A stretch of 64,000 nucleotides of DNA from Flavobacterium psychrotolerans (GTDB lineage Bacteria > Bacteroidota > Bacteroidia > Flavobacteriales > Flavobacteriaceae): positions 1 to 64,000 of the forward strand of contig NZ_QCZI01000017.1 in the NCBI RefSeq assembly GCF_003097635.1. Reading direction: 5' to 3'. Below the pieces are notes generated by a model. It ran no database searches and was not told the DNA's origin. It worked only from the letters and a program-made list of their open reading frames with translations. The stretch's first letter is position 1, and each line of letters starts with the position of its first letter. Below are positions 7,129-44,988 of this stretch, in pieces. The translations under genes and the position numbers were made by a program.

Positions 7129-7538
7129 TTTTTTGTAAAAAAATCACTATGATTAAATGTTAATGATAATTTCATTTAAAATGGGTATATGGTAACATTT
7201 TTTAGTTGGATTCTTTTCTTTTTAGGAAAATTGACGGTTATTGTTAAAAAAATAAATAAATCTTTAGGAGGGATTATAATAGTTGCTTTTAAAGATTATT
7301 CATAAAAATGAATATTTTAAAGCGATAGTTTGAGATTGTCATTTGAATTGGTCAAGACAAAAAATAAAAAAATATACGTAAAAAACAAGGTGTCATAAAA
7401 AATGAATTAATGGCATTTGAATTTATTTTTTCTAGTATTTTAAATACTTTGATAAATAATTATAATAGAGACATATTAGATTTAATTAAAGATAAATTTT
7501 TAACATCATAAAATTTATAATAAAATTAAAACATTCCC
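7129..7538. other. AT-rich divergent intergenic region
   Basis: This is the shared upstream region of the divergent OmpA and T9SS-protein genes. It is very AT-rich. I see no gene, repeat or hairpin of note apart from the promoter boxes listed at either end. Confidence 0.5.
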
Positions 7539-7546
7539 TATATTTG
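7539..7546 (+). promoter_or_regulatory. Probable -7 box of the T9SS-protein gene
   Basis: TATATTTG matches the Bacteroidetes -7 consensus and lies 33 bases before the ATG at 7579. No clear TTG is present at the -33 distance, so the call rests on one box. Confidence 0.5.
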
Positions 7547-7578
7547 TCAGATATTTAATTTAAACTCAATAAAAATTT

Positions 7579-9096
7579 ATGAAAAAACTATTACTTTCAT
7601 GTTTTATGCTAATTATTGGCATAAATGTTTTTGGACAAGCTTCTTGTGCAGCCGCAATAAACATTACTACAAATGGTACAAAAACAGTAGCACCTGCCAC
7701 GGGAACGTATCAAACTTTGTGTTTGGACAGCAATGTAGGTATTAAAGCAATGTGGTACAAATACACTCCTACTGTTAATGGTGAAATGACAATTTCATCC
7801 GATTTGCCAGTTAATGATGGTACAACTTACAGTGACGATACTAGATTGTCCGTTTTAAGCGGTACTTCTTGTACTACTTTGTCTTGTGTAGATTCTAATG
7901 ATGATGTTGATGCGTCTAATTATTTATCAACTTTAACTGTTCCAGTTGCTGCCGGAACAACGTATTACATTCAATGGGATAATTTTTGGATAATAGATGG
8001 TGGATTGACGAATCTCGGATTTAAATTCACATTTACATTTACTCCTGTTTCTTGCGTACGATTAGGTTCTAGTGATTTTTATTCTCCAGATTCCTATACT
8101 ACGACTTCAGCAAATTTATATTGGGATCCGGCAATTGGAGCGCCATCAAATTACGATGTTGACTGGAGTACTGATTTTACTGCAGCCGCTGGTTCAGGAA
8201 CGAGTGTGTCAGTTCCTGCGGGTAGCCTATCATATGTTGTAGGTTCTTTAACGGACTTACCGGTTTCGTCAAACTTTAGATATTATGTTCGTTCTAATTG
8301 TGATGTAAATTCTCAAAGTGAATATCAGGGACCATATTATGGATATCTGGCAAAATCATTACCTTATTCAAATGGATTTGAAGATCCTGCAAATAATTTA
8401 AGAGATGGCTTCAAAGGATTTTCACTTTTTACAAGTGATGGTACAACTAATCCTGCAAGTTATGCTGATGGTGGCGATGGTTCATCATTGTATTCTTTTA
8501 ATAGTACTACAGCGGCAACGGATGATTGGGCATATTCAAGAGCTTTAAGTTTAAGTGCAGGAGAAACTGTAACGATAAATTTTAAAACAAGATTGTATTC
8601 AGGTGGAACTCCTACAGATTTGGCATTAGATTTAAAAGTTGGGGATAGTCAGACAAGTGCAGGTCAAACTACTTTAGTTAAAAGCTTTGTTATCACTGAC
8701 GATACTGCCTATACACAGCAAACTGCAACATGGACTGCTACTACAGGTGGGATTTATTATTTTGGTTTTAATAATAATTCTCCAATTGGTGCAACCGATA
8801 CGGCTATGTTTTTTGATTCTTTAGAGTTCTCTTCAGTACTTTCTGTTAATAACTTTAATGCGAATAAATTTTCTGTTTCCCCTAATCCGGCTAAAGATAT
8901 AGTGTCAGTTTCTTCAGAAAATAGTTTAATTGACAATGTGAACATTACAGATTTAAACGGAAGAATAGTAGTGCAAAAAGCATTTGATAAAACTTCAAAA
9001 CTTCAAATGAACATTTCTGGACTTGCTTCTGGAGTATATATGATGAATATTAAATCTGATTTAGGAATTATTACCAAAAAAATCATCAAAGAGTAA
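7579..9096 (+). CDS. T9SS-secreted protein with type A sorting domain
   Basis: The 505-residue protein starts with a signal peptide (MKKLLLSCF to VFGQ, about 20 residues). An N-terminal domain follows with paired cysteines (SCTTLSCVDSNDD). A fibronectin III-like segment lies around 155-255, and a jelly-roll or cleaved-adhesin-like segment around 258-420 (LPYSNGFED, WAYSRALSL). The last 75 residues are a type A type IX secretion sorting domain (FSVSPNPAKD, ITDLNGRIV, LASGVYMMNI, KKIIKE). It should cross the outer membrane through the type IX system and be anchored or released. The ligand is unknown. The gene stands alone between its promoter and a strong terminator. Confidence 0.88.
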   Translation: MKKLLLSCFMLIIGINVFGQASCAAAINITTNGTKTVAPATGTYQTLCLDSNVGIKAMWYKYTPTVNGEMTISSDLPVNDGTTYSDDTRLSVLSGTSCTTLSCVDSNDDVDASNYLSTLTVPVAAGTTYYIQWDNFWIIDGGLTNLGFKFTFTFTPVSCVRLGSSDFYSPDSYTTTSANLYWDPAIGAPSNYDVDWSTDFTAAAGSGTSVSVPAGSLSYVVGSLTDLPVSSNFRYYVRSNCDVNSQSEYQGPYYGYLAKSLPYSNGFEDPANNLRDGFKGFSLFTSDGTTNPASYADGGDGSSLYSFNSTTAATDDWAYSRALSLSAGETVTINFKTRLYSGGTPTDLALDLKVGDSQTSAGQTTLVKSFVITDDTAYTQQTATWTATTGGIYYFGFNNNSPIGATDTAMFFDSLEFSSVLSVNNFNANKFSVSPNPAKDIVSVSSENSLIDNVNITDLNGRIVVQKAFDKTSKLQMNISGLASGVYMMNIKSDLGIITKKIIKE

Positions 9097-9134
9097 TTCT
9101 TATTTTTTATAATACATACTCAAAAAAAACTAAG

Positions 9135-9163
9135 ACTCCTCAAGTAATTGAGGAGTTTTTTTT
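9135..9163 (+). terminator. Rho-independent terminator of the T9SS-protein gene
   Basis: A 9-bp stem (ACTCCTCAA with its complement), loop GTAA and an eight-T tail lie 39 bases after the stop codon at 9096. Confidence 0.92.
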
Positions 9164-9383
9164 GAGCCAGTTGTAGGGGATAGTCTCTATGAGGAGGGCT
9201 GTTCGTCGAAAATAATGAGTTGTTGAGATATTATAAGTTTGTGTAATTACTTTTTTTAAAGCTATACATTTGATTGTTAATGATTTTGATTTTAGGATAA
9301 AAAAAACACTGTATTTGTTTGTGAAATAGAGAATAGAAAGTTATATTTGCAACCGCTTAAATAAAGACACGTTCTTTGAGCTT

Positions 9384-9470
9384 GGAGAGTTGCCTGAGTG
9401 GCCGAAAGGACATGTTTGCTAAACATGCGTATGGGTAACTGTACCAAGGGTTCGAATCCCTTACTCTCCG
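9384..9470 (+). tRNA. tRNA-Ser (GCT)
   Basis: The acceptor stem GGAGAGT pairs with ACTCTCC. The anticodon GCT sits in TTTGCTAAAC. A long variable arm typical of class II tRNA and the T-loop GGTTCGAATCC are present. CCA is not encoded. It is the first gene of a three-tRNA cluster. Confidence 0.97.
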
Positions 9471-9486
9471 CTTTTTTTAAGTTTTT

Positions 9487-9561
9487 CGGGGTGTAGCGTA
9501 GCTCGGTTATCGCGCCTGCTTTGGGAGCAGGAGGCCGCAGGTTCGAATCCTGCCACCCCGA
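9487..9561 (+). tRNA. tRNA-Pro (TGG)
   Basis: The acceptor stem CGGGGTG pairs with CACCCCG, the anticodon is TGG (CTTTGGGAG), and the T-loop is GGTTCGAATCC. It lies 16 bases after tRNA-Ser, so the two are probably cut from one transcript. Confidence 0.97.
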
Positions 9562-9584
9562 CTAATTTTTTTTACATGAGCCAT

Positions 9585-9658
<74 letters not shown>

Positions 9659-9664
9659 CTTCAA

Positions 9665-9691
9665 AACCCACTGAATTCAGTGGGTTTTTTT
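9665..9691 (+). terminator. Rho-independent terminator of the tRNA cluster
   Basis: A near-perfect palindromic stem (AACCCACTGA / TCAGTGGGTT) is followed by a T tail 7 bases past tRNA-Arg. Confidence 0.9.
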
Positions 9692-9806
9692 GTTTTTTAT
9701 ATGGTTTGTTGATGTAAAATTCAATTAGACTCCTTATTTAAGTTTTGTTTATTCATAAAATATAAAAAATACTTTATTTTTACACTAAAATAATCAAAAC
9801 AAGAAA

Positions 9807-10640
9807 ATGATACATTGGAAAACCGTCAAAGACTTCGAAGATATAACCTATAAAAAATGTGATGGAGTAGCGCGTATTGCCTTTAACCGTCCCGACGTCC
9901 GCAATGCCTTTCGTCCAAAAACCACATCGGAATTGTATCAAGCCTTTTATGACGCTCAAGAAGATACTTCAATAGGTGTAGTTTTACTTTCTGCCGAAGG
10001 CCCTTCATCTAAAGACGGTATTTATTCTTTTTGTAGCGGGGGTGATCAAAATGCTCGGGGTCATCAAGGCTATGTCGGAGAGGATGGACAACACCGTTTG
10101 AATATTCTTGAAGTACAACGTCTCATTCGGTTTATGCCAAAAGTAGTTATAGCAGTAGTTCCTGGTTGGGCAGTTGGTGGCGGACACAGTTTGCACGTGG
10201 TTTGTGATTTGACACTAGCCAGTAAGGAACATGCCATTTTTAAACAAACGGATGCTGATGTAACTAGTTTTGATGGAGGATATGGGTCAGCCTATTTGGC
10301 CAAAATGGTGGGTCAGAAAAAAGCGAGAGAAATTTTCTTTTTAGGACGTAATTATTCTGCACAAGATGCCATGGATATGGGGATGGTCAATGCCGTGATT
10401 CCGCATGCGGAGCTGGAAGATACCGCTTATGAATGGGCACAGGAAATTCTGCAAAAATCGCCAACATCCATAAAAATGCTAAAATTTGCCATGAATCTTA
10501 CGGATGATGGAATGGTGGGACAACAGGTTTTTGCAGGAGAAGCTACACGCTTGGCTTATATGACTGATGAGGCGAAAGAAGGAAGAAATGCTTTTTTAGA
10601 AAAGCGCAAACCGAATTTTGAAAAAAAATGGTTGCCATAA
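9807..10640 (+). CDS. menB: 1,4-dihydroxy-2-naphthoyl-CoA synthase
   Basis: This 277-residue crotonase-fold enzyme closes the second ring of the naphthoquinone by converting o-succinylbenzoyl-CoA to 1,4-dihydroxy-2-naphthoyl-CoA in menaquinone synthesis. The MenB signatures are present: the oxyanion and substrate segments SGGDQNARG and GGGHSLHVV, the active-site segment TSFDGGYGSAY, and the C-terminal EGRNAFLEKRKPNF that reaches into the neighbouring subunit. The length is normal for the family. The ATG at 9807 follows an A-rich leader with no Shine-Dalgarno sequence. menA follows after 66 bases, so an operon is likely. Confidence 0.96.
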   Translation: MIHWKTVKDFEDITYKKCDGVARIAFNRPDVRNAFRPKTTSELYQAFYDAQEDTSIGVVLLSAEGPSSKDGIYSFCSGGDQNARGHQGYVGEDGQHRLNILEVQRLIRFMPKVVIAVVPGWAVGGGHSLHVVCDLTLASKEHAIFKQTDADVTSFDGGYGSAYLAKMVGQKKAREIFFLGRNYSAQDAMDMGMVNAVIPHAELEDTAYEWAQEILQKSPTSIKMLKFAMNLTDDGMVGQQVFAGEATRLAYMTDEAKEGRNAFLEKRKPNFEKKWLP

Positions 10641-11645: not shown

Positions 11646-12326
11646 ATGAAAATTACTTTTTACGGACACGCTTCATTAGGAATACAAGTCAGTGGCAAAA
11701 GCATTCTGGTAGACCCCTATATTTCAGCAAATCCTAAAGCATGCCACATTAATATTAACGAGTTGAAACCCGATTATATTTTTCTAACCCATGCGCATCA
11801 AGATCATGTGTTGGACGTGGAATATATCATGCAAAATAATCCGAATGCAATTATTGTTTCAAATTATGAAGTGGCTACGCATTTTGGGAATAAAGGGCTA
11901 AAAAATCATCCTATGAATCATGGAGGGAGTTGGAAATTTGATTTCGGAACGGTAAAGTATGTCAATGCCGTCCATTCCAGTTCTTTTGCAGACGGCACTT
12001 ACGGAGGAAATCCTGGAGGCTTTGTTATTGAAGGCGAACATAAAAACATATACATTTCTGGAGATACCGCCCTAACGATGGATATGAAACTTATTCCGAT
12101 GCGCACCAAACTCGATTTGGCAATTTTTCCCATAGGCAACAATTTCACCATGGATGTTGAAGACGCTATTCTTGCTTCTGATTTTGTGGAATGCGACAAA
12201 GTTCTCGGATGCCATTACGACACCTTTGGTTATATCGAAATTAACCATGAAGAGGCCATTCGCAAGTTTTTCAACAAGGGAAAGGACTTAATGTTATTGG
12301 AAATCGGAGAAAGTATCGAATTGTAA
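11646..12326 (+). CDS. Metallo-beta-lactamase fold hydrolase, UPF0173 type
   Basis: This 226-residue cytosolic protein has the metal-binding motif THAHQDHVLD (about residues 50-59) and further ligands in VNAVHSSSFADG, ISGDTAL and GCHYDTF. That pattern is the UPF0173 or YtkL-like branch of the metallo-beta-lactamase superfamily; the family's natural substrate is not well established. It starts 9 bases after menA and probably belongs to the same transcript. A role in menaquinone metabolism would be only a guess from position. A 14-bp hairpin follows the gene. Confidence 0.9.
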   Translation: MKITFYGHASLGIQVSGKSILVDPYISANPKACHININELKPDYIFLTHAHQDHVLDVEYIMQNNPNAIIVSNYEVATHFGNKGLKNHPMNHGGSWKFDFGTVKYVNAVHSSSFADGTYGGNPGGFVIEGEHKNIYISGDTALTMDMKLIPMRTKLDLAIFPIGNNFTMDVEDAILASDFVECDKVLGCHYDTFGYIEINHEEAIRKFFNKGKDLMLLEIGESIEL

Positions 12327-12367
12327 ATACAAATCATTTGAAGCTTTTTCCAGCTATTCATTACAAT

Positions 12368-12400
12368 CTTTTTATCTCGTTAAAGAAACGAGATAAAAAG
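12368..12400. terminator. Hairpin between hydrolase and TPR genes
   Basis: A perfect 14-bp stem (CTTTTTATCTCGTT / AACGAGATAAAAAG) with a 5-base loop lies 41 bases after the hydrolase stop. The T runs lie inside the stem rather than after it, so it may act as a weak terminator, attenuator or RNA-stabilising end. Confidence 0.55.
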
Positions 12401-12470
12401 GATTTTCATTACTATCTGGGCTAGGGTTTTCGTTTTGAATCAAAATCCCGTGACTTTTACAAATTTAATC

Positions 12471-13670
12471 ATGCAAAATAAACAGTTCACTTTCCTCTTT
12501 TTCTTTTTCATCGCAATACAATCCTTTGCGCAACAAGACGGCTATTGGGACAAGGAGCGTGCTACCTCCAAACAAGTGGTGGTAAGTGCAAGGAAAAGAA
12601 TTATTATCAATACTGAAGATTTACCCATTGGAACCACAGAAGTGGTATTCAGAATCACGCTACTCGACGAAAACCAGCAAATGGCTAATAGTTTGGTTTC
12701 TGTCCTCAAAGCAATACCTGACCCAACGGGAATAAGCCAAGGTTCGGCTGGAGCAGTTTTGTTGTTGTCAAAAATTTCAGGGGAAGACAAATGCAAATAC
12801 GCTATTTTCTCAAATGCAACATTGGCTGCTGATTATAAAGAAAAAGGAACGACGAATAAGGCCTGTTTAGCTCAAAACAATCCAGTAAACAAAGATGCGA
12901 AACGCCTTTCTATAAACTCATCTAGTTGCTTAAAATCGAATTCCATGTGGTTTGGTTTTGAAAACAAAAACTGGATCATGAACCAACGCATCGTTTTAGA
13001 AGTGGTGCCGTGGGTGAATACAAGATTGAGTAGCGGTTGGAGTCTTGAAAACAGAAAATCGGTTTTGAGTCTTTGTAAATCTACCGATTTGGCAAAAAAA
13101 ATCCCGAATTCAGACAATTACTGTGTCTGCATTTTGGAGAAATTGCAAAAAGAATACCGCTTTAATGAGTATCAAAGTCTATTGGCAGCAGAAAAAACCA
13201 AAGTCATCAAAGATTTCGGTAAGGCTTGTTTTACGGAAACGGGAGGTTCTGACGAGGTTTACAGCGCCTTACGCAGTCAGGCTTCTGATTTGGCAAAACA
13301 AAAGAAATATGGTGAAGCAATAGTCAAATTAGGGGCGATTATTGAAAATGATAAAGCAATCGTTTCTGATTTTAATGCTATTGGAAGTTGTTATATTTTA
13401 ACGAAGCAATACGATAAAGCCATCAGATTTCTAAAAATAGGAGAGAAGTTGGACGATTCGGAATTATTGACTAAATTGAATTTAGCCCATGCCTATTTAT
13501 TGAATAATGAATATAGTCAAGCCAAATCGATTTATAAAAAATACCAGTCGCAAAATGTAACCGATAGTTTAAGTTGGACACAAAAAGTAAAGCAGGACTT
13601 TGAAACTTTTGAAAAAGCAGGATTGCCTTCGGAGGATTTTAAAAGGATATTGAATAGTATCGATAATTAA
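12471..13670 (+). CDS. Exported TPR-repeat protein
   Basis: The 399-residue protein starts best at the ATG at 12471, which gives a clean signal peptide (MQNKQFTFLFFFFIAIQSFAQ). A longer frame exists only from a TTG at 12435. The N-terminal half (about 30-240) matches no family I know and contains cysteines in CLKSNSMWFGFENKNW. The C-terminal part (about 245-390) holds tetratricopeptide-like helices (LAKQKKYGEAIVKLGAI, AIGSCYILTKQYDKAIRFL, LNLAHAYLLNNEYSQAKSIY). It should be periplasmic or surface-attached and act in protein binding. It lies between menaquinone genes and ends 19 bases before menC, so it may share that transcript without sharing the pathway. Confidence 0.8.
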   Translation: MQNKQFTFLFFFFIAIQSFAQQDGYWDKERATSKQVVVSARKRIIINTEDLPIGTTEVVFRITLLDENQQMANSLVSVLKAIPDPTGISQGSAGAVLLLSKISGEDKCKYAIFSNATLAADYKEKGTTNKACLAQNNPVNKDAKRLSINSSSCLKSNSMWFGFENKNWIMNQRIVLEVVPWVNTRLSSGWSLENRKSVLSLCKSTDLAKKIPNSDNYCVCILEKLQKEYRFNEYQSLLAAEKTKVIKDFGKACFTETGGSDEVYSALRSQASDLAKQKKYGEAIVKLGAIIENDKAIVSDFNAIGSCYILTKQYDKAIRFLKIGEKLDDSELLTKLNLAHAYLLNNEYSQAKSIYKKYQSQNVTDSLSWTQKVKQDFETFEKAGLPSEDFKRILNSIDN

Positions 13671-22368: not shown

Positions 22369-22842
22369 TTAGCTTAAATATCGCCTTAATATCCATGCCG
22401 TTGTTTCATGCTGTTCCATTAATTTTGTTAAAAAATCGATAGTTCCTGCATCTTTATTTTCATCAGCACAGCTTTCAATGTCTTTACGTAGCTGAATTAC
22501 AACAGTTTCATGATCGCCCAACAATTCCTGAATCATTTCTTTTTGACATGGATACTGATTTGAAGTTTCTTTGATGATGGTTAACTCCGTAAATTCTTTC
22601 ATTGTACCAATGGTTTTTTCGCCTAATTTATTGATGCGTTCCGCTATTTCATCAATGGATACTTCCATTTGGTTGTATTGGGCTTCAAATAATTTATGGA
22701 GTTCCATAAAACTTTCGCCGGATACATTCCAATGAAATTTTCTTGTTTTAACGTATAAAGTCATTTCATTTGCTAAAGTAGAAGAAAGAATTGAGATGCT
22801 TTTTTTTAAATGTTCCTCTGATATTCCAATTTGTGGTTTCAT
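22369..22842 (-). CDS. dps: Dps-family ferritin-like DNA protection protein (copy 1)
   Basis: The 157-residue protein has the Dps ferroxidase ligands in their usual spacing: His37 (FHWNV), His49 (ELHKLF), Asp64 and Glu68 (SIDEIAER). Dps forms a 12-subunit shell that oxidises and stores iron using peroxide and shields DNA in stationary phase or oxidative stress. There is no long lysine-rich N-terminal tail, so direct DNA binding is uncertain. It heads a probable two-gene unit with the 89-residue protein. A paralogue about 73 percent identical by hand count lies at 24391-24864 on the same strand. Confidence 0.94.
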   Translation of the reverse strand: MKPQIGISEEHLKKSISILSSTLANEMTLYVKTRKFHWNVSGESFMELHKLFEAQYNQMEVSIDEIAERINKLGEKTIGTMKEFTELTIIKETSNQYPCQKEMIQELLGDHETVVIQLRKDIESCADENKDAGTIDFLTKLMEQHETTAWILRRYLS

Positions 22843-24390: not shown

Positions 24391-24864
24391 TTAACTCAAA
24401 TATCTTCGTACTACCCAAGCCATGGTTTCGTGGTTTTCCATCAATCCCGTTAAGAAATCGGCTGTACCAGCATCACCAATTTTTTTGGTACATACCTCAA
24501 TATCGTTTCGCAGTTGAAAAATAACGGTTTCATGATCTTCTAATAATTCTCTAAGCATTTCTGCTTGGGAAGGATACTTGCCTGGGGATTCCAAAAGAAT
24601 GGTTAAACCAGAGAATTCTTCCATGGTTCCAATGGTATTTCCTCCTAATTTACTGACACGTTCCGCTATTTCGTCTATAGATTCTTCCAGTTGTTTGTAC
24701 TGGCTTTCAAATAATTTGTGGAGTTCCATAAAGCTCTCGCCGGACACGTTCCAATGAAATTTTCTGAGTTTGATATACAAAGTCATTTCATTTGCTAAAA
24801 TGGAAGAAAGATAGGAAATACTTTCTTTTAAATGCTCTTCTGTAATTCCAATTTGTGGTTTCAT
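24391..24864 (-). CDS. dps: Dps-family ferritin-like DNA protection protein (copy 2)
   Basis: This 157-residue paralogue of the gene at 22369-22842 has the same length, and all four ferroxidase ligands are kept (FHWNVSGESFMELH and SIDEIAER). About 43 of 157 residues differ, concentrated in the central helix and loop region (about 70-135), while the metal site and both ends are conserved. Such pairs may form separate or mixed shells, or respond to different stresses. It is probably monocistronic. I see no clear promoter box in the 139 bases upstream. Confidence 0.94.
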   Translation of the reverse strand: MKPQIGITEEHLKESISYLSSILANEMTLYIKLRKFHWNVSGESFMELHKLFESQYKQLEESIDEIAERVSKLGGNTIGTMEEFSGLTILLESPGKYPSQAEMLRELLEDHETVIFQLRNDIEVCTKKIGDAGTADFLTGLMENHETMAWVVRRYLS

Positions 24865-31470: not shown

Positions 31471-32001
31471 CTATTGGTATAAAGTGGAAATTTCCGACGC
31501 CGTAGCATAATTTTTTTTCGTTTTGTCTGAAGCAGTCGAAAAGTATGTTTTTCGATTTACGGCCGTGAAATTTCCTATTTGGCTATTAAATTTGTTACTA
31601 ATACCCTTGATGTTGAAATGAATAGATTGGATATCGGTAGTTTTAAGTTTGTTTATCTCTGTGCTTGAAAATGTATAATAAGAAATGATTTGATTTCCAA
31701 TATTTTCCCGAATTCCTTTGTCAGAACATGTAATGATGCTATTGTCAATCAAGTAAACATAAACGGTTCCTGCAATAGTAAACGATGGGTTAGTAGTTTC
31801 GACGGCTAATTTTAATACTCCGCCTTTTTCCGTTTTTGCAATTTGAATGTTGGCAAGACCCGATAAAGCATAATTTTCGCAAATAAAATTCCAAGAGCTG
31901 GTAGCGGGATATTGTTTTAAACCTTTTATAATAATTTGTTCCTGACTCGTTGCAGAAATTGTGACTATAAACAATAGAAAAATCAGGACTTTAAGATTCA
32001 T
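31471..32001 (-). CDS. Secreted hypothetical protein
   Basis: The 176-residue product starts at the ATG at 32001, which gives a signal peptide (MNLKVLIFLLFIVTISATSQ). A longer frame exists only from a TTG inside the upstream gene. The mature part is predicted beta-rich (AGTVYVYLIDNSIITC, IISYYTFSSTEIN) with two cysteines. I know no family for it. It follows the lipoprotein gene by 23 bases on the same strand, so the two probably form a small envelope operon. Confidence 0.72.
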   Translation of the reverse strand: MNLKVLIFLLFIVTISATSQEQIIIKGLKQYPATSSWNFICENYALSGLANIQIAKTEKGGVLKLAVETTNPSFTIAGTVYVYLIDNSIITCSDKGIRENIGNQIISYYTFSSTEINKLKTTDIQSIHFNIKGISNKFNSQIGNFTAVNRKTYFSTASDKTKKNYATASEISTLYQ

Positions 32002-32024
32002 GAATACAGATTTATTATTGTAAG

Positions 32025-32495
32025 TTATTTGTTGGTAAACGTATCTACCCAATCAAATGATTTTATGGCTGAAACCTGATTTTTTTCGTTTAAAAATATC
32101 CGAAGTTCTTTATTGGCTATTTTCTTTTCATATAGAGCTTTATAACGAAAAATGACGTTCTTATCCTCGTTATTCTTAAAAGCTTCTACCAATTGGAGGT
32201 CTTTAAAATCGCCATATTTTAATCGGAATTTCAAACAGGTTTTGGTCAATCGATCTTGGGTCATATTCTTAATTACGGATGGTGTTGCTTCACTTGAATT
32301 AAAAGGTTTGAACTTGGATATGTTGCAAGTCATCAATACCCGTTTTCCTATTTCTAAAGTCTTACTTTTTTGTTTTTCATCTATTAGGGAGAGGGTCAAT
32401 TTTATAATATTTGCTTCGATTGGCTTTTGAATCACATTTTTCGATTTGCATCCTAGTAGCATCAACAAACTTAAAAGGAAAATAACTCTTTTCAT
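32025..32495 (-). CDS. Putative lipoprotein
   Basis: The 156-residue protein has a lipoprotein signal (MKRVIFLLSLLMLLGC) with the lipid-attached Cys16 after LLG. The mature part has no family I recognise. It ends with RIFLNEKNQVSAIKSFDWVDTF, a strand-rich pattern seen in small envelope proteins. It is the first of a two-gene set with the secreted protein downstream. A role in the envelope is inferred only from the signal. Confidence 0.75.
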   Translation of the reverse strand: MKRVIFLLSLLMLLGCKSKNVIQKPIEANIIKLTLSLIDEKQKSKTLEIGKRVLMTCNISKFKPFNSSEATPSVIKNMTQDRLTKTCLKFRLKYGDFKDLQLVEAFKNNEDKNVIFRYKALYEKKIANKELRIFLNEKNQVSAIKSFDWVDTFTNK

Positions 32496-32863
32496 CTTTT
32501 ATACTATTTATTTATAATACTTGGTTTTGATTCGGGTTATCTTTAAAAATCAATTCCGAATCACTTAATTTCCTAACGTACTAGTTGTAAACAATATTGT
32601 TTCAATTTTTTTCAATTAACATTTGGAGTTGTATTTTAACCAAAGTTTATGATTTTTTTTGGGGAAATCTAGATGGATTTGGATTTCAATTTTATGCAAA
32701 CATTATTTTAGTACAAACTCGGGTTTTGATTTGGGTTTGCTTCATTCATCATGGCATAGACTTTTTTATAAATATCTTCTATTAGCAACTTCTTTTACTG
32801 CTTGGAATTAATCTAAGATATAATAATTTGCAATCTATAAATTATATCAAAGTCTTTTTTAGT
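32496..32863. other. Intergenic stretch with a gene fragment
   Basis: AT-rich sequence downstream of the T9SS protein gene. The notable content is the decayed copy of the end of the E1 dehydrogenase gene at 32708-32782. No other gene or clear terminator is seen. Confidence 0.6.
32708..32782 (-). pseudogene. Decayed duplicate of the E1 dehydrogenase 3' end
   Basis: The minus strand encodes IEDIYKKVYAMMNEANPNQ, then NPSLY and a stop. The intact E1 gene at 35826-35900 ends IEDIYEKVYAMVSEASPNQ, then YPSLY and a stop. Over the 24 codons, 19 residues and 64 of 72 bases match, and five of the eight changes are C to T on the plus strand. No start codon or upstream portion of the gene remains here. 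The two copies are direct repeats about 3.1 kb apart that bracket the T9SS protein gene. Confidence 0.9.
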
Positions 32864-35761
32864 TTAATTTTTTATCAATTTAAACGATTGGTTTCCAGTT
32901 TCTCCAATCTTTATAAAATAAATTCCAGAGGACAATGAGTTTAAATAAACTTTTGTAGTTTCTCCAATTAATTTACCAGATAATAATCTTTGGCCAATTG
33001 AATTTAGAATAACATACGCTGAATTTAATTCGTCATTTTTGTTCTCAATTACAATGAAATCATTTGAAGGGTTTGGATAAATCGAAATAGTATTGGCTAT
33101 CTCATTTTCATTGATACCTAAACCGAAGCATAAACCATTCACCAGCCCAGGAGTTGTCCTTTGGGAATAATTTCCGTTTCCTAGCTGTCCCGCCCCATTA
33201 CTTCCCCATGACCAGACAGTATCATCATCTTTTAATGCAAGAGAATACTCGCCACCCCCAGAAATCTGCACAATATTTGTCAGGGAACTTACTTGTACAG
33301 GAATATTGCTGTTTATTTTGCTTCCAATACCAAGCTGTCCACTATTATTTCTTCCCCAAGACCATACTGTACCGTTACCTTTCAATGCAAGAAAGAAATT
33401 ATTTCCGGCAGAAATACTAGTGATGCCACTAAGAGAAGTAATCTGGATGGGGATATTGCTTGATGTGAAATTTCCATTTCCTAATTCGCCATTGTAATTA
33501 CTTCCAAATGACCAAACAGTGCCGTCGCTTTTTAGAACAATAGAGCTATCGGATGATAAAGCTATAGCTGTAACATTCGTCAGTGAATTTATTTGCAAGG
33601 GAGTAAGAGTATAAATGTTGTCTCCTTTGCCCAATTGTCCAAATAAATTATCTCCCCATCCCCAAACCGTACCGTTATTTTTAATAGCAAAGCAGTGTTC
33701 TCCACCTACTGCAATGGCAGTGATACCTGTGAGGGTATTAACCTGACCAGGCGTGTTGGTAGAGACGGAGGTTCCATTTCCGAGTTGGCCATTAGTGTTA
33801 GTGCCCCAAGCCCAAACTGTACCATCATTTTTGAGTGCAAGTGAGCTGCTTGCCGAAGGCGAAGCTGCCCCGGCAATTACTCCAGAGGGTATTATTATTT
33901 GTGGGCTATTGGTATCAGTATTGGTTCCGTTACCAAGAGTACCGGAATAATTAGAGCCCCAAGACCAAAGCGACCCGTCATTTTTCAATGCCGTATTCCA
34001 TCCCCAGCCTCCATAAACGGCCGTAACTCCATCAATAGTGTTCACCGAAACCGGTATTGTGGAATCTGTTGCAGCACCGTTGGTTCCATTTCCAAGCTGT
34101 CCATAAACGTTTTGTCCCCATGCCATTACACTGCCAGTTCCACAAATGAAGAGCCCGTGGGCAGCTGCGCCAATAATTCTTTTGGTTGTTTGTGTTTGCA
34201 AAGGAGCTCCCACTGATACTGAAATCCAGCTGTAACCACCCACGCCGCAATCATTGGCCGTGCTTACTGATATGGAGCCTCCTCCTTCATTTCCGACCAC
34301 AACAGTGATAGAATTGGTAGTAGAATTTCCCGACCAATCGCCGGGTAAGGTCCAGGTATAGCTCGTTGCACCAGGGACTAAAGCAACAGTATAAGTCTCG
34401 GTGGCACCTTGGTTGACCGTTGTGTTTCCGGTAATTTCACCAGGCTGTTCAGGTGCACAAGCAGAGCCATATATCCACAATTCCATTCCATAAAACCAAT
34501 TGGTGGCGCTAAAAAATAAATTGGTATTTACAGGTGTTGAATCGGTTGCAAAAGCATTTTGTCCGGGATGAATATTTGAAATTTGTACGGTTCCTGCTGC
34601 AGTTCCGTCACTTTTCCATAATTCGGATGAGGTAAAAGTCAGAACGTTGTTGAAATTTTGTAAATCTCTGATTGGATATGCGAAACTACTCACGAAATTT
34701 GTACCCAATGTTGTCCCGTCACTTTTCCATAATTCGTACAACAGACTTACATTATTTTGAGTGTAAAAAAACAAGGTTCCGTTTACAGCAATCATCGCAG
34801 GATTATCATATATATTCATTTCGGGAGTGCTGTTCGGAATCTGTTTTACTAGTTGGGTTCCCGTTGCTGTACCATCGCTTTTCCAGAACTCTTTATTGTT
34901 TGATGAATTGACGAAGGTAAAATAAAGTCGATTATTATAACTCGTAAAGTCTGCTAATTGACTATCAGAAGCTCCGGCAGTAATGTTTTTTACCAAGGTT
35001 GTCCCTGCAGTCGTTCCATTAGTTTTCCATAATTCAAGACCATTGACGCTTTCGGTTGCAGTGAAATATATAGTGCCGTTTACTTCTAAAAAGATTTTCC
35101 CTAAATTGTATTCCATCGGACTCACATTTTTCACTAGCACGGTTCCGGCCGTGAAGCCGTCGCTTTTCCATAATGATTTTCCGTTTATCCCGTCATCTAC
35201 TGCAAAAAACAAAGTGCCGTTGATATTTGTCGATACTGAAGGAGGAACCGGAGTTATCTGATTTGAAGGATATATGTCTTTTATCAAAGACGTACCAGCA
35301 ACAGTTCCGTCTGTTTTCCATAATTCTATTCCTGTGGCAGGGTCTTGACAATCAAAAACCAATATACCATTTAAATTTTCCAGATTGAAGATGACAGGAG
35401 AGCTTTTTACTATAGTTGTGCCAATGGCTGTTCCGTCACTTTTCCAAAGGGCTTCTGCAAAAGAAAAATACAATATCCCGTTTACGTTTGTAAAATCCCC
35501 GGCTCCTTGACCGGTTGACGATGAAATTGTTTTGACAGCCACAGTACCTGAGACTGTACCATTGCTTTTCCAGAGCGTCATATCTATACTGGAGCCCCCG
35601 GTACTTTGATACACAACAAAAAACAAGACCCCATTTACATTAGTAAGGCCACTGGGACTGCCGTTACCCATCCCCGGATCTATATCTTTTAATAAGACTG
35701 TGGTTTGGCTATACGTTGCAGCATGTGCCATAACAAACAATAAAAATATAAGTTTTTTCAT
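32864..35761 (-). CDS. T9SS-secreted ELWxxDGT and RCC1 repeat protein
   Basis: The 965-residue protein begins at the ATG at 35761 (signal peptide MKKLIFLLFVMAHAATYSQ); a longer frame from a GTG would overlap the E1 gene. About eight ELWKSDGTxxGT repeats fill residues 15-430. A PKD or Ig-like segment follows (ATSYTWTLPGDWSG). Then come seven RCC1 repeats (VWSWGSNxxGQLGNG type, about 535-885), enough for a seven-bladed propeller. The end is a type A sorting domain (ISIYPNPSND, LNSIGQRLLS, LSSGIYFIKI). It should be exported by the type IX system to the surface. The binding partner is unknown. It sits between a gene and a decayed repeat of that gene's end, suggesting insertion. Confidence 0.9.
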   Translation of the reverse strand: MKKLIFLLFVMAHAATYSQTTVLLKDIDPGMGNGSPSGLTNVNGVLFFVVYQSTGGSSIDMTLWKSNGTVSGTVAVKTISSSTGQGAGDFTNVNGILYFSFAEALWKSDGTAIGTTIVKSSPVIFNLENLNGILVFDCQDPATGIELWKTDGTVAGTSLIKDIYPSNQITPVPPSVSTNINGTLFFAVDDGINGKSLWKSDGFTAGTVLVKNVSPMEYNLGKIFLEVNGTIYFTATESVNGLELWKTNGTTAGTTLVKNITAGASDSQLADFTSYNNRLYFTFVNSSNNKEFWKSDGTATGTQLVKQIPNSTPEMNIYDNPAMIAVNGTLFFYTQNNVSLLYELWKSDGTTLGTNFVSSFAYPIRDLQNFNNVLTFTSSELWKSDGTAAGTVQISNIHPGQNAFATDSTPVNTNLFFSATNWFYGMELWIYGSACAPEQPGEITGNTTVNQGATETYTVALVPGATSYTWTLPGDWSGNSTTNSITVVVGNEGGGSISVSTANDCGVGGYSWISVSVGAPLQTQTTKRIIGAAAHGLFICGTGSVMAWGQNVYGQLGNGTNGAATDSTIPVSVNTIDGVTAVYGGWGWNTALKNDGSLWSWGSNYSGTLGNGTNTDTNSPQIIIPSGVIAGAASPSASSSLALKNDGTVWAWGTNTNGQLGNGTSVSTNTPGQVNTLTGITAIAVGGEHCFAIKNNGTVWGWGDNLFGQLGKGDNIYTLTPLQINSLTNVTAIALSSDSSIVLKSDGTVWSFGSNYNGELGNGNFTSSNIPIQITSLSGITSISAGNNFFLALKGNGTVWSWGRNNSGQLGIGSKINSNIPVQVSSLTNIVQISGGGEYSLALKDDDTVWSWGSNGAGQLGNGNYSQRTTPGLVNGLCFGLGINENEIANTISIYPNPSNDFIVIENKNDELNSAYVILNSIGQRLLSGKLIGETTKVYLNSLSSGIYFIKIGETGNQSFKLIKN

Positions 35762-35825
35762 AAGTTTTTGTTTTAAAAATCTGTAAATACTTTTTAGGCT
35801 TATATTTTTAAAAAGAAATTGGTTT

Positions 35826-38228
35826 CTAATACAAACTCGGGTACTGATTTGGGCTTGCTTCACTCACCATGGCATAGACTTTTTCATAAATATCTTCGAT
35901 GGAAGGTTTTGAAAAATAATCCCCATCCGTTCCATAAGCTGGCCGATGAGGTTTTGATGCCAACGTTTGAGGTTTACTGTCTAGATAATCATATCCGTTT
36001 TGAACTTCAAGAATTTGTTGTAAAATATAGGCAGATGCGCCACCTGGGACATCTTCGTCAATAACCAGCAAACGATTGGTTTTCATTACGCTTTTCGCAA
36101 TATCATGATTGATGTCAAAGGGCAATAGGGATTGGATATCGATGATTTCACAATTAATACCAATCTCCAAAAGTTCACTTGCGGCTTGCTCCACCAAACG
36201 CAACGTAGATCCGTATGAAACTAATGTAATGGAGTCTCCCTCCAGTATGGTTTCTACCACTCCGATTGGGGTTTTGAATTCACCCAAATTGGCTGGCATT
36301 TTTTCTTTAAAACGATACCCGTTTAGACATTCCACCACTAATGCGGGTTCGTCAGATTCTAACAAGGTGTTATAAAAACCAGCGGCTTTTGTCATGTTTC
36401 GGGGTACTAAAACATGAATTCCACGAAGTGCGTTGATTATCATTCCCATTGGTGAACCAGAATGCCAAATACCTTCTAAACGATGGCCTCGTGTACGAAT
36501 GATTAAAGGGGCTTTTTGTTTTCCATGAGATCTGTACTGTAAAGTGGCCAAATCATCACTCAAAATTTGTATGGCATATAATAGATAATCCAAGTACTGA
36601 ATTTCGGCAATTGGTCGTAGCCCTCGCATTGCCATGCCAATTCCTTGGCCTATTATGGAGGCCTCCCGTATGCCTACATCGGCAACACGAAGAATTCCGT
36701 ATTTTTTCTGCATGCCTTCAAGCCCTTGGTTTACATCACCTATATTTCCGGCATCTTCGCCAAAAATTAACGCTTGTGGATATTTGGTGAAAATAACGTC
36801 AAAATTGTCTCGTAAAATCACGCGAGCATCTGCATCTTCGGCATCTTCTTCATAAGCGGGCAGTACTTCTTTTACGGAAAGAGCGGTATTATTTGATTGA
36901 GAAAACAGGTGAGAACTGAATTTGGGCTGAATCTTATTGGTATAGTCGGCAATCCATTTTGAAAGTTCTGTTTTGCAATTTTCGGTTACCACCATTCGTA
37001 AAACTTTACGAGCAGTCATGATGATATCTTTACGAATTGGTTCTTTTATGGAATTTAAATCAGAAGCATATTTTTGGATAAATACTTTATTTACGGATGT
37101 GGTTGCTATTTTTTCCAGCAATTCCACAAGCGCTGTTTTTTCGTTTTTGAAAGGAGTAACAAAGGCTTCCCAAGCCGCTTTTTTTCCATCAAGGACAACT
37201 TTTTTTGCTTTGGTTTCTATTTCATTTATTTCCTCTTCTGTTGCAATACCATTAGAAATCATCCATGATCTCATTTGTTTGATACAGTCAAAATTGCGTT
37301 CCCATTCCAAACGCTCCGCATTTTTATATCGTTCATGGGATCCCGAAGTAGAATGTCCTTGGGGTTGCGTTAATTCACTTACATGTATTAAAACGGGGAT
37401 GTGTTCGTCGCGGGCAATTTTAGCCGCCTTTTCATATGTAGCTACCAAATCGGCATAATCCCAACCCTTTACCTTAAGAATTTCGAATCCGTTTGACCCT
37501 TTGTCACGTTGAAATCCGCTTAATATTTCTGAAATGCTTTCCTTGGTGGTTTGGTATCTGGCGTGAACCGAAATCCCGTATTCGTCATCCCAAACGCTCA
37601 TAACCATCGGCACTTGTAAAACTCCGGCAGCATTTAGGGTTTCAAAAAATATTCCTTCGGAAGTACTGGCATTTCCAATGGTTCCCCATGCAATTTCATT
37701 CCCACCAACCGAGAAGTTTGAGGAGTCAATTCCTTCCACATTACGGTATATTTTTGATGCTTGAGCCAAACCCAACAATCGGGGCATTTGCGCTGCTGTA
37801 GGCGAAATATCGGCACTAGAATTTTTTTGTTTGGTTAAGTTTTTCCAGGAGCCATCATCGTTTAAACTATGTGTTTGAAAATGTCCACCCATTTGTCTAC
37901 CGGCAGACATTGGGTCATGATTAACATCGGCATGACCGTATAAACCTGCAAAAAATTGTTGAACAGTAATTTGGCCAATCGCCATCATGAACGTTTGATC
38001 TCTGTAATATCCCGAACGGAAATCGCCATTTTTAAAGGCTTTTGCCATGGCTAACTGTGGTACTTCTTTTCCGTCACCAAAAATCCCGAATTTTGCTTTT
38101 CCCGTAAGGACTTCGCGTCTTCCTAAAAGGCTACATTCTCTGCTTGTAATGGCAATTTTATAATCATTTAATACTTCTGTTTTGAAATCTTCAAATGTCA
38201 GTGTCGCATTGGTTTCCGCCTGTATCAT
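35826..38228 (-). CDS. Fused E1 alpha-beta 2-oxoacid dehydrogenase
   Basis: The 800-residue protein joins a thiamine-diphosphate-binding E1 alpha part (about 1-400) to an E1 beta part (about 465-800, with LIFGEDAGNIGDVNQG, IIGQGIGMAMRGLRPIAEIQY and LLVIDEDVPGGASAYILQQ). In the cofactor motif the expected NN is DD (VWDDEYGIS). It decarboxylates a 2-oxoacid as part of a multi-enzyme complex; the likely substrate is a branched-chain 2-oxoacid, but pyruvate-type use cannot be excluded from sequence. No E2 or E3 gene is in the window. Single-chain fusions are usual in Bacteroidetes. A TAAATTTG box lies just upstream. Confidence 0.9.
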   Translation of the reverse strand: MIQAETNATLTFEDFKTEVLNDYKIAITSRECSLLGRREVLTGKAKFGIFGDGKEVPQLAMAKAFKNGDFRSGYYRDQTFMMAIGQITVQQFFAGLYGHADVNHDPMSAGRQMGGHFQTHSLNDDGSWKNLTKQKNSSADISPTAAQMPRLLGLAQASKIYRNVEGIDSSNFSVGGNEIAWGTIGNASTSEGIFFETLNAAGVLQVPMVMSVWDDEYGISVHARYQTTKESISEILSGFQRDKGSNGFEILKVKGWDYADLVATYEKAAKIARDEHIPVLIHVSELTQPQGHSTSGSHERYKNAERLEWERNFDCIKQMRSWMISNGIATEEEINEIETKAKKVVLDGKKAAWEAFVTPFKNEKTALVELLEKIATTSVNKVFIQKYASDLNSIKEPIRKDIIMTARKVLRMVVTENCKTELSKWIADYTNKIQPKFSSHLFSQSNNTALSVKEVLPAYEEDAEDADARVILRDNFDVIFTKYPQALIFGEDAGNIGDVNQGLEGMQKKYGILRVADVGIREASIIGQGIGMAMRGLRPIAEIQYLDYLLYAIQILSDDLATLQYRSHGKQKAPLIIRTRGHRLEGIWHSGSPMGMIINALRGIHVLVPRNMTKAAGFYNTLLESDEPALVVECLNGYRFKEKMPANLGEFKTPIGVVETILEGDSITLVSYGSTLRLVEQAASELLEIGINCEIIDIQSLLPFDINHDIAKSVMKTNRLLVIDEDVPGGASAYILQQILEVQNGYDYLDSKPQTLASKPHRPAYGTDGDYFSKPSIEDIYEKVYAMVSEASPNQYPSLY

Positions 38229-41316: not shown

Positions 41317-42084
41317 TTAAAAATTAGGGCTTAAATTGTATTTTTTGTAGAAACTATCAAGAGCCTCAACGACCTCATCTTCAGTATCCACAATTTTAAA
41401 TAAATTTAGGTCTTCTATGTTTACTGTCTTTTCTTGTTCAATCAAAACGGTTTTAATCCAATCAATTAGTCCTGCCCAAAAACTAGAACCGACAAGTATT
41501 ATGGGAAACTTCCCAATTTTTTTAGTCTGAATTAAAGTTAACGCTTCAAACATTTCGTCTAAAGTTCCAAAACCACCCGGCATCACCACAAATCCCTGAG
41601 AATATTTCACAAAAATAACCTTCCGAACAAAGAAATAGTCAAAATTCAAATTTTTATCCTTATCGATGTATGGATTGTAATGTTGTTCAAAAGGCAACTC
41701 GATATTCAGTCCTACTGAGGTTCCTCCTCCAAGATGAGCCCCTTTATTACCCGCTTCCATAATTCCGGGTCCGCCACCTGTAATCACTCCATATCCCGCT
41801 TTACTAATTTTATAGGCTATTTTTTCGGCCAATAAATAGTATTTCTCGTCCGGTTTTATTCTTGCCGATCCAAAAATAGTAACACATGGACCAATGCGCG
41901 CCATGGTTTCATAACCGTTAACAAACTCGGACATGATTTTAAAAATCGCCCAGCTGTCATTGGTTCTTATTTCATTCCATGTTTTTTGTTTTAATTTATC
42001 TTGGATTACTTTATCCTCGTCATTGTCAAAATCTTTTAATCTCATTTTCTTTAAATCTAAATTTTTAATTTTTTCTGGATTCAT
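41317..42084 (-). CDS. LOG-family nucleotide 5'-monophosphate nucleosidase
   Basis: The 255-residue Rossmann-like protein belongs to the TIGR00730/LOG family. Motifs are TIFGSARIKPDEKYY, VITGGGPGIMEAGNKGAHLGGG and the catalytic PGGFGTLDEMFEAL. Members cut the N-glycosidic bond of nucleoside monophosphates (PpnN-type, or cytokinin-activating in some). The length and N-terminal extension of about 50 charged residues fit the bacterial housekeeping type rather than the short plant-associated LOG. The gene follows uvrA by 56 bases. Confidence 0.88.
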   Translation of the reverse strand: MNPEKIKNLDLKKMRLKDFDNDEDKVIQDKLKQKTWNEIRTNDSWAIFKIMSEFVNGYETMARIGPCVTIFGSARIKPDEKYYLLAEKIAYKISKAGYGVITGGGPGIMEAGNKGAHLGGGTSVGLNIELPFEQHYNPYIDKDKNLNFDYFFVRKVIFVKYSQGFVVMPGGFGTLDEMFEALTLIQTKKIGKFPIILVGSSFWAGLIDWIKTVLIEQEKTVNIEDLNLFKIVDTEDEVVEALDSFYKKYNLSPNF

Positions 42085-42140: not shown

Positions 42141-44972
42141 CTAAAGTAATTCTTTTTTTAAAAATTGCGCTGTGTAGCTTTTTTTATTTTTAATAATTTC
42201 TTCTGGGGTTCCTTTTGCAACGACCTGTCCGCCGCCCTTTCCACCCTCGGGACCAATGTCTATGATGTAATCGGCGAGTTTTATGACGTCCATATTATGC
42301 TCGATAATCAAAATAGTATTCCCTTTATCCACTAATTTATTAATCACTTCCATCAACACCCGAATGTCCTCAAAATGCAGTCCTGTCGTGGGTTCGTCTA
42401 AAATATAGAAGGTATTTCCGGTGTCTTTTTTAGACAATTCTCCAGCTAATTTGATACGCTGCGCCTCGCCACCAGAAAGCGTTGTGCTTTGTTGCCCCAA
42501 AGTGATATAGCCCAAACCAACATCCTGAATAGTTTTTACTTTTCTATAAATCTTAGGTATCATTTCAAAAAATGGAACCGCTTCGTCAACAGTCATATTC
42601 AGTACATCCGAAATGGATTTTCCTTTGTATCGAATTTCCAGTGTTTCTCTGTTAAAACGCTTTCCTTGACAGGTTTCGCACTCTACATATACGTCAGGCA
42701 AAAAGTTCATTTCTATCGTTCGCACTCCTGAACCTTCGCAGGTTTCGCATCGTCCTCCCTTTACATTAAAACTAAAACGTCCCGCTTTGTAGCCTCGAAT
42801 CATGCTTTCGGATGTCATCGTAAACAGATTCCTAATTTCCGTAAAAACTTCGGTGTATGTTGCCGGATTAGAGCGTGGCGTTCTTCCAATAGGGCTTTGG
42901 TCAATGTCAATTACTTTATCAATATGCTCTAAGCCTTCAATCTTTTTATACGGTTGTGGTTTTTTTACGCCATTAAAATAAAACTCGTTCAAAATAGGAT
43001 AGAGTGTCTCGTTTATCAGTGTCGATTTTCCACTTCCGGAAACCCCTGTGACACAAATCATTTGTCCCAAAGGCAATTCAATGGAAACATTTTTCAGATT
43101 GTTTCCTGTAGCTCCAGTCAGCTTTAGGAATTTCCCATTACCACTTCGGCGTTTTTCGGGGATTTCAATTTTCATTTCTCCGTTAAGATACATGGCCGTT
43201 ATGGTGTGTTCTTTCAGGATTTCGGCAGGCGTTCCTTTGCTGATGATTTCACCTCCAAATTTCCCCGCTTTTGGACCAATGTCAATTACGTAATCGGCAC
43301 GTTCAATCATGTCCTTATCATGCTCAACTACAATTACCGAATTTCCCAAATCCCGCAATTGCTCGAGAGAATGAATTAATTTTTCATTGTCTCGTTGATG
43401 TAATCCAATACTTGGTTCGTCCAAAATATACAAGACACCAACTAGTTGTGAACCGATTTGGGTTGCCAGTCGAATGCGTTGTGCCTCGCCTCCTGAAAGC
43501 GATTTAGAACTTCGGCTTAAAGCCAAATACTCTAAACCTACATTCATTAAAAAATTCAATCGATCCTTAATCTCTTTGATTACTTCGGTAGCTATAATTT
43601 TTTGTTTATCAGACAAATGTTTTTTTAGATCATGAAACCAAATCGTCAAATCGGATATGTCCAAATCGCATAGTTCAGCAATGTTTTTTTCGTTAATTTT
43701 AAAAAAAAGCGCTTCTTTTTTCAAGCGGGAACCTTCACAAACGGGACATTTTACCTCATCCATGAATTCCTTTGCCCATCGTTTGATGGTTGCCGAACCG
43801 CTTTCGTCATGCTGGCTTTTGATGAAGTGGGAAATTCCCTCAAATTCAATTTTGTATTCTTTGCTAATTCCCAAGCTTTTGGATTCGACGGTAAATTTTT
43901 CTTTGCCGCCATTCAATATCATTTCCATCGCCTCCTCGGAAATGGTTTCGATGGAATCAGTCAGTTTGAAACTGTATTTTTCTCCTATGATTTCCAGTTG
44001 CTTAAAAATCCATGTTGATTTGTATTCGCCCAATGGCGCAAATCCGGCATTTTTTATGGATAATTTAGGATTTGGGATGATCTTTTTGATGTTGATTTCG
44101 TTTACTGTTCCCAAACCGTTACAATGGTCGCAGGCACCCTTAGGGGAGTTGAACGAAAATAAATTGGGTTCCGGATTTTGATAGGAAATTCCCGTTGTGG
44201 GACACATTAAATTCCGACTGAAATAGCGTACTTGATTTGTATCCTGGTCTAAAATCATCAGCACATTTTCGCCGTGATACATGGCGGTTTTGATGCTTTC
44301 AGCAAGTCTTTTTTCATTATCTGGCGTGTCCTCGACAACCATTCTATCAATCACGATTTCAATGTCGTGAGTTTTATAACGATCTAGTTTCATTCCTGCC
44401 GTGATGTCTTTTACATCTCCATCAATTCGGACTTTTAGAAAACCCTGTTTGGCTATTTGTTGGAATAATTCTCCGTAATGCCCTTTTCTGGCTTTAATTA
44501 CAGGAGCAAGAATGTTAATGCGTTTGCCTACAAAATCGTTACTAATTAATTCCTTGATTTGGTCGTCTGAATAGGAGACCATTTTTTCGCCCGTATTGTA
44601 ACTATAAGCATCACCAGCGCGGGCATATAGCAAACGCAGGAAATCATATATTTCAGTTATTGTACCCACTGTGGAACGGGGACTTTTGCTGGTTGTTTTC
44701 TGTTCGATAGCTATAACAGGGGATAAGCCGTCAATTTTATCTACATCGGGACGTTCCAATCCGCCAAGAAATTGTCTGGCATATGCTGAAAAAGTTTCTA
44801 CATACCGACGTTGTCCTTCGGCATAAATTGTATCGAAAGCCAATGACGATTTTCCAGAACCCGAAAGCCCGGTGATGACCACCAATTTCTCTCTAGGAAT
44901 CGTGACGTCAATGTTTTTTAGATTGTGTACTCGCGCACCCAATACTTCAATGTTATTATCGTTTTCTAGCAT
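42141..44972 (-). CDS. uvrA: Excinuclease ABC subunit A
   Basis: The 943-residue DNA damage sensor of nucleotide excision repair has two ABC modules: Walker [13 protein letters not shown] near the N-terminus and [12 protein letters not shown] at about 655. Two signature segments are [13 protein letters not shown] and [13 protein letters not shown]. Zinc-binding cysteine pairs lie in CPVCEGSRL and [18 protein letters not shown]. The ATG at 44972 (MLENDNN) is preferred; a longer frame begins at a TTG four codons earlier. A TAACTTTG box lies 17-24 bases upstream. All motifs are intact and the length is typical. Confidence 0.97.
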
Positions 44973-44988
44973 AATTTTAGGCAAAACG

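Follow-up and report, generated by a model that had tools for sequence, protein, structure and literature searches.

A gene for a secreted protein has been inserted directly behind a fused E1 dehydrogenase gene in Flavobacterium psychrotolerans, with the E1 gene kept whole, its old end displaced to the far side of the insert and no recombinase encoded within the insert, and these features are supported directly. On balance we favour the reading that the locus records a gene insertion at the E1 3' end which left a 75-nt duplication of that end and which arose by homology-anchored illegitimate recombination; the likeliest route would be a homology joint on the E1 side with illegitimate joining on the far side. 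The DNA analysed, referred to as the window, is a stretch of 64,000 nt (assembly GCF_003097635.1, contig NZ_QCZI01000017.1, positions 1-64,000, forward strand) from a draft genome of 3.24 Mb in 54 contigs.

A secreted-protein gene between two copies of the E1 gene end

The E1 gene (35826-38228, minus strand, 800 aa) was intact by ORF analysis, its product matched the Pfam families E1_dh, Transket_pyr and Transketolase_C, and full-length relatives were found throughout the genus. A repeat search of the window returned a direct repeat pair at 32706-32782 and 35824-35900, 77 nt in length and 88% identical, with a spacing of 3118. The inner copy (35824-35900, minus strand) is in use as the last 24 codons and stop codon of E1, while the outer copy (32706-32782, minus strand) is attached to no gene. 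The initial annotation had stated that the last 24 codons of E1 (35826-35900) recur at 32708-32782 in the same orientation, with 64 of 72 coding bases identical and the secreted-protein gene between them, and this was confirmed, the identity being 66 of 75 with the stop codon included. In the codon alignment nine differences were counted over 75 nt, eight within the 24 codons and one in the stop codon. The two copies, E1 and the cargo gene are all on the minus strand, and the cargo lies wholly between the copies.

A search of positions 32600-32900 against the draft genome at E <= 0.001 returned the query itself and the E1 end (E = 1e-21), and no third copy of the E1 end was found in this draft at that threshold (40 of 67 candidates scored). 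Past the stop codon the two copies had no similarity, the best local score of 12 being reached by 85% of 1000 shuffles. An extension of the repeat beyond the stop to 136 nt, obtained by blastn with cheap gaps, was ruled out as being no better than shuffles. Upstream of the 24 codons, at the cargo/remnant junction (32783-32863), E1 similarity was not seen (best score 9.5, a score without shuffle control). By inspection, the open frame that starts at the first ATG of the stub is just 14 codons long. A scan for promoters and terminators gave no excess over shuffles. Tandem duplication of a unit made up of the E1 tail and the cargo was ruled out, as a second cargo copy was not seen beyond the stub.

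The cargo gene (32864-35761, minus strand) encodes a protein of 965 aa in which Pfam recognised PKD_6, seven RCC1 stretches and a T9SS sorting tail (Por_Secre_tail), and in which ELWxxDGT-type motifs were found by inspection in the N-terminal half. It is the single gene of the insert, in which ORF and Pfam analysis found no recombinase domain and no transposase or integrase. No relatives at E <= 1e-100 were found in 397 other genomes of the genus (two candidates scored in the genomes listed), and at E <= 1e-40 the relatives among 196 genomes of the order were partial only, with 33-46% identity. Comparison with plasmids gave one 70-base match and comparison with phages gave none. A donor with this cargo immediately behind E1 was not found in 138 E1 loci or in the genus genome search. 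Within the same genome (G000), two other genes, in C24 at about 7531-9852 and in C13 at 79697-80659, encode proteins which are 39-46% identical to the cargo protein over its C-terminal half, where RCC1 repeats are found. Elsewhere in the window two similar genes of 157 aa, Dps-like by inspection, are found 1.5 kb apart (22369-22842 and 24391-24864) with two small unrelated genes between them.

Empty sites in related genomes

On the far side of the stub, at a distance of 212 bp, is a 156-aa gene (32025-32495, minus strand), followed by a 178-aa gene (31471-32007, minus strand). Both are ancestral neighbours of E1: the former is found directly behind E1 in relatives with an empty site and the latter behind the 156-aa gene in several relatives, with a homologue of the 178-aa gene directly behind E1 in one locus (L178). 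The comparison was based on 138 E1 loci with their surroundings, drawn from two sets (58 and 80) in which some genomes occur twice and a few loci are not Flavobacterium. Within the stretch examined, a homologue of either neighbour was found downstream of E1 in 28 of the 138 loci, and in seven of the 138 the site was empty, the neighbour match starting 77-193 bp behind E1 as measured to the start of the protein match. None of the 28 loci contained a match to the cargo gene above 50 bits or a second E1 end; a weak 53-bit match to the T9SS gene was seen in two loci only (L059 and L136), which are apparently one genome. As the 212-bp gap in the window is close to these empty-site gaps, the stub stands where the native E1 end is expected, and its distance from the conserved next gene makes the outer copy best read as that native end, displaced.

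The last 38 residues of E1 were also used as a query, and 388 of 398 genus genomes matched at E <= 0.01. Two E1-end matches were found in only three of the 388: the genome of the window, Flavobacterium sp. MK4S-17 (G110) and G417. The last of these was ruled out as a further stub case because it has two E1 genes on two contigs. The stub as a conserved separate small gene was likewise ruled out, with no lone copy in cargo-free genus genomes. The proposal in the initial annotation, that the cargo arrived by insertion at the E1 3' end and left a duplicated terminus, is supported by the empty sites: E1 followed by the sequence left of 32708, as it had predicted for relatives without the T9SS gene, is the arrangement of the seven loci, while the isolated 24-codon fragment in a cargo-free relative, which would break the model, was not found, the one other lone fragment being accompanied by its own cargo.

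The junction behind E1 varies across the genus even where there are no stubs. The interval between E1 and the 156-aa gene holds other genes in L040, L046, L052, L101, L108, L163, L164 and others, these being an ORF of a 225-aa class, often a small lipoprotein-like ORF and sometimes several genes.

Base composition of the two repeat copies

When the nine differing sites were compared with the E1 genes of 136 loci, the outer copy was found to have the commoner base at six and the inner copy at three. Six of the nine differences are C in the inner and T in the outer copy on the plus strand; at five of these it is the outer copy that has the more frequent base. The earlier suggestion that the outer copy has decayed chiefly through C to T changes was thus not borne out, the polarity being mixed and for the most part the reverse. 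The same base polarity was obtained at the first eight of the nine sites in 131 filtered loci. At codons 12 and 16 the base of the inner copy is shared by 1 and 2 of the 136 loci, respectively. The outer copy departs from the common base at codon 6 (G in 132 of 136) and codon 20 (T in 130 of 136) and has Glu-to-Lys and Tyr-to-Asn changes at positions which are fixed in all 131 filtered loci. Since rare bases are present in the inner copy and the outer copy differs at almost fixed positions, each copy has substitutions peculiar to it. Unusual bases are more numerous in the inner copy, which is presumably under selection, than in the free stub. A simple duplication with later decay would not predict this, whereas import of the inner copy together with the cargo would.

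In an alignment of E1 from 130 distinct proteins, rare residues were found at 2 of 14 conserved columns in the last 24 codons compared to 10 of 540 elsewhere, a slight excess in a small sample. The identity of E1 to its nearest relatives showed no sharp change towards the 3' end, and an imported tract along E1 was not seen in this identity profile.

A second insertion at E1 in Flavobacterium sp. MK4S-17

Flavobacterium sp. MK4S-17 (L105) has a lone E1 end near its E1 gene and is the sole other genome of the 388 with such a match. The E1 gene ends at 12406 and is followed by a GNAT acetyltransferase gene (12466-12966, minus strand, PF13302) as cargo, beyond which is a broken E1 end where 13022-13114 and 13110-13211 correspond to 12136-12227 and 12304-12406 of E1. 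These blocks are about 95% identical, with the intervening stretch deleted, and together they span up to 271 nt of E1; the second block (103 nt, 95%) ends exactly at the stop codon. The same gene has thus received different cargo with a different length of repeat in the two genomes, which argues against a fixed attachment site. The close relatives of MK4S-17 were too far removed to serve as witnesses, the best of 39 others being 78% identical at the DNA level.

Duplicated 3' ends of other genes

A self-comparison was carried out on the 138 loci together with the window (2.52 Mb), with a classified rerun on the 138 loci (2.46 Mb), and the same repeat search was run on 1.193 Mb of the genome from which the window was taken. 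Four pairs of gene end and stub at a 3' end were found in the latter genome, three clear and one weak in the 1.26 Mb examined, and five in the loci. In this genome the further gene ends duplicated around unrelated cargo are those of meaB and mfd and, weakly, of a pseudouridine synthase gene.

The meaB end is duplicated over 73 nt (93%) around a gene of 262 aa without a Pfam match, and the corresponding empty site, with a 76-aa neighbour within 77 bp, was found in 8 of 17 genus loci. The mfd end is duplicated over 93 nt (82%) around an 887-aa gene, which had no Pfam match in the 695 residues scanned, together with genes for a Porph_ging protein and an HTH protein; the empty site, with mfd followed by the metalloprotease gene, was seen in 1 of 19 loci. 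The weak case at the pseudouridine synthase gene (41 nt, 88%, E = 0.01) encloses a DUF4153 gene, a winged-helix gene and a 211-aa gene, and the empty site is represented by folD behind the synthase, at a distance of about 84 bp in one of 15 loci and of up to about 400 bp in a second. As a homologue of the first cargo gene is beside the synthase in 3 of 15 loci, this insert may be an old one that some species have since lost.

In the loci, the uvrA end is duplicated around a DUF559 gene in G381, where the copies are identical at 100 of 101 positions, and in Flavobacterium sp. Ww15, two cases which may not be independent. The end of an rsmD-like gene is duplicated in Flavobacterium sp. ALJ2 (L129) with a 219-aa gene as cargo, and in F. 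shii (L128, 2028-5969) two copies of the uvrA end flank a gene for a YobI-like P-loop NTPase located behind uvrA. The F. shii insert shares its target with the DUF559 genes and differs from them in cargo. A first filter had labelled the L128 repeat as a paralogue pair, and this was ruled out by alignment. In the window, uvrA (42141-44984) adjoins the next gene (41317-42084), which is the empty state.

Over E1 and the other genes the span of the duplication varies from about 41 to 271 nt, and the cargo is a different one each time. Among the cargo proteins scanned none matched a recombinase family; of those from the other cases, four had no Pfam match, one of the four being scanned in part. In eight of the nine inspected cases the repeat ends at most 15 nt from the stop codon; the ninth is the rsmD-like gene of ALJ2, where the repeat continues for 56 nt beyond the stop. 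Neither the survey of this genome (1.26 Mb) nor that of the loci gave a clear scar at a gene 5' end. Gene starts and ends in these surveys were taken from mechanical ORFs, and the meaB stub and the E1 end were also labelled as 5' because the mechanical ORF of the cargo starts too early. Rows set aside by eye were pairs inside one gene, paralogue pairs and pairs wholly between genes; repeat families, namely a cluster at C3 24.1-28.0 kb (five rows, 5' of a small ORF) and the C4 arrays; a degenerate duplicated stretch in L053, with one row touching a gene start; and internal or short repeats in L040, L052, L056, L112, L116, L144, L163 and one row of L164.

Among 30 DUF559 loci examined (L274-L303), long direct repeats were present in 10 of the 12 at uvrA, where they consist of the uvrA 3' end, and in 5 of the 18 elsewhere; the bracketing is exemplified by L274 (1328-1428 and 2038-2138). 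In the ten bracketed uvrA loci, two of which are counted above as cases, the repeat ends 1 to 7 nt before the stop codon. Away from uvrA the bracketing repeats resemble intergenic repeats of the REP type. DUF559 genes may be mobile units. A 230-nt direct repeat (98%, copies 500 nt apart) was also noted in the genome of the window, outside mechanical genes (G000 C2, 22936-23164 and 23667-23896; L192).

Explanations for the duplicated E1 end

Under the favoured reading, the cargo of one T9SS gene would have entered between E1 and its old neighbour on incoming DNA which carried a related E1 end followed by the cargo. This piece would have recombined by homology within E1 on one side and been joined illegitimately on the other at about 75 nt upstream of the E1 stop codon, such that the inner copy would be the incoming end and the outer copy the recipient's own, pushed to the far side of the cargo and left there as a gene-less stub. 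E1 stayed intact because a complete end is present on the near side of the cargo. That homology stops at the stop codon is expected if the copies came from two genomes which are alike in coding sequence and not downstream of it. Counted against a donor were the failure to find one with E1 and this cargo, the lack of a break in E1 identity and the rare-residue excess, which is slight. A possible, and to us less probable, account is a true target duplication in which about 75 nt at the end of the resident E1 were copied during insertion by an event of a staggered or template-switching kind, so that both copies would derive from the same genome and no E1 sequence would have arrived with the cargo. 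Near-identical copies elsewhere favour it (uvrA in G381 and the 103-nt block of E1 in MK4S-17), as do the Helicobacter restriction-modification insertions, which are so described in the portions of PMC3874152 and PMC1643837 available. The inner copy has the commoner base at six of eight sites in MK4S-17 and at four of five at meaB, some by narrow margins in each; this fits plain target duplication as well, and suggests that the route may differ between cases or that donors were close kin. The outer copy of the window, with the commoner base at six of nine sites, speaks against such copying, and duplications of a target at random would not be expected to end at the stop codon, as they nearly do in eight of the nine cases.

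The initial annotation had likened the event to a site-specific element. Integration of an element that rebuilds the E1 3' end, as integrases do at tRNA genes, would explain the rebuilt gene end, the remnant on the far side in the same orientation and the fact that E1 was struck twice in the genus with different cargo. We regard it as very unlikely, given that the differing lengths and cargos, with no recombinase in the scanned inserts, point away from a fixed-site element: the insert in the window consists of one gene and encodes no recombinase domain, the scanned cargo proteins of the other cases had no match to a recombinase family, the repeat at E1 is 75 nt here against a span of up to 271 nt in MK4S-17, and the targets are unrelated genes. 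The likeness was accordingly set aside. Just as little credence is given to a second complete E1 beyond the cargo which decayed to its last 75 nt. Its stub would be in frame with the stop codon position kept, as is seen, but no E1 similarity was seen on the upstream side of the stub, and at 88% identity the stub is well kept for an otherwise vanished copy; a downstream second end was found in only one of the 138 loci, that of MK4S-17, which itself has cargo, this count covering the stretch examined and fairly similar copies. Chance or an assembly artefact is scarcely credible: the assembly is indeed a draft of 54 contigs, but the match had an E value of 1e-21 in its own genome, the copies differ at nine sites and independent cases were found in other assemblies.

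Implications for gene acquisition

Many singly acquired bacterial genes show no visible trace of their entry, and a stub of the upstream gene end marks such an arrival and shows its boundaries and orientation. It is possible, if less likely than not, that Flavobacterium gains genes repeatedly by a route which needs no recombinase and acts at the 3' ends of housekeeping genes, leaving the gene intact and a stub beyond the cargo. If this is true, each event would place new genes directly behind an intact gene and leave an old-end stub which stops at the stop codon. The outer stubs would then be fossils of the gene end before insertion and could be used to date or trace single-gene acquisitions without a mobility gene, and a search for stubs would be a simple sequence means to count acquisitions that involved neither a transposase nor an integrase. 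That 3' ends are involved repeatedly, and that the duplication stops at the stop codon, offers a clue to how the joints form that can be tested.

Comparison with known systems

Integrases that insert at gene 3' ends rebuild them, so that the gene is whole and a 3' fragment is left at the far end. The present locus is alike in its whole gene and far-end 3' fragment, and differs in that no integrase was found and the length is not fixed.

Homology-facilitated illegitimate recombination acts on DNA uptake and its anchoring is RecA-dependent. It has one homologous and one illegitimate joint, according to the available parts of PMC3240628 and PMC5361080, and as described there it resembles the present case in that it can place foreign genes next to a conserved gene, the route being deduced here from sequence. 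In the T6SS effector clusters and Rhs orphan ends of V. cholerae, as presented in the available sections of PMC5361080, the 3' portion of a gene is the entry point of a new module, by which the former 3' end or its partner is displaced downstream, and the same recombination route is proposed. The V. cholerae modules are effector-immunity modules in which the old immunity genes are kept, in the same sections, whereas here the same 24 codons are duplicated; the stub in the window is without visible function, unlike the retained immunity genes described there.

Narrow literature searches returned no report on long direct repeats with horizontal gene transfer in Flavobacterium and no related report on DUF559 in Bacteroidetes, and the pattern may have been published.

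In insertions with long target duplication, the insert is without transposase or integrase. Such insertion is known for restriction-modification genes of Helicobacter pylori (Nobusato et al. 2000, cited in the available text of PMC1643837 and PMC3874152), where the target duplications are long and variable, in the order of 100 bp, in the part of PMC3874152 available. As far as these partial sources go, the kind is recognised by cargo present or absent between relatives and by a long direct target repeat of variable length on both sides. The window has these features, with an empty site in seven of the 138 loci and a repeat of 77 nt at 88% identity. It differs from the H. pylori type in having a secreted-protein cargo in place of restriction-modification genes, a frequent association there which is not strictly defining, in that the clear cases here duplicate gene 3' ends, an apparent restriction, and in that the two copies in the window seem to have separate histories. 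Mechanism apart, the window locus is classed as an insertion with long target duplication, which is the closest known kind.
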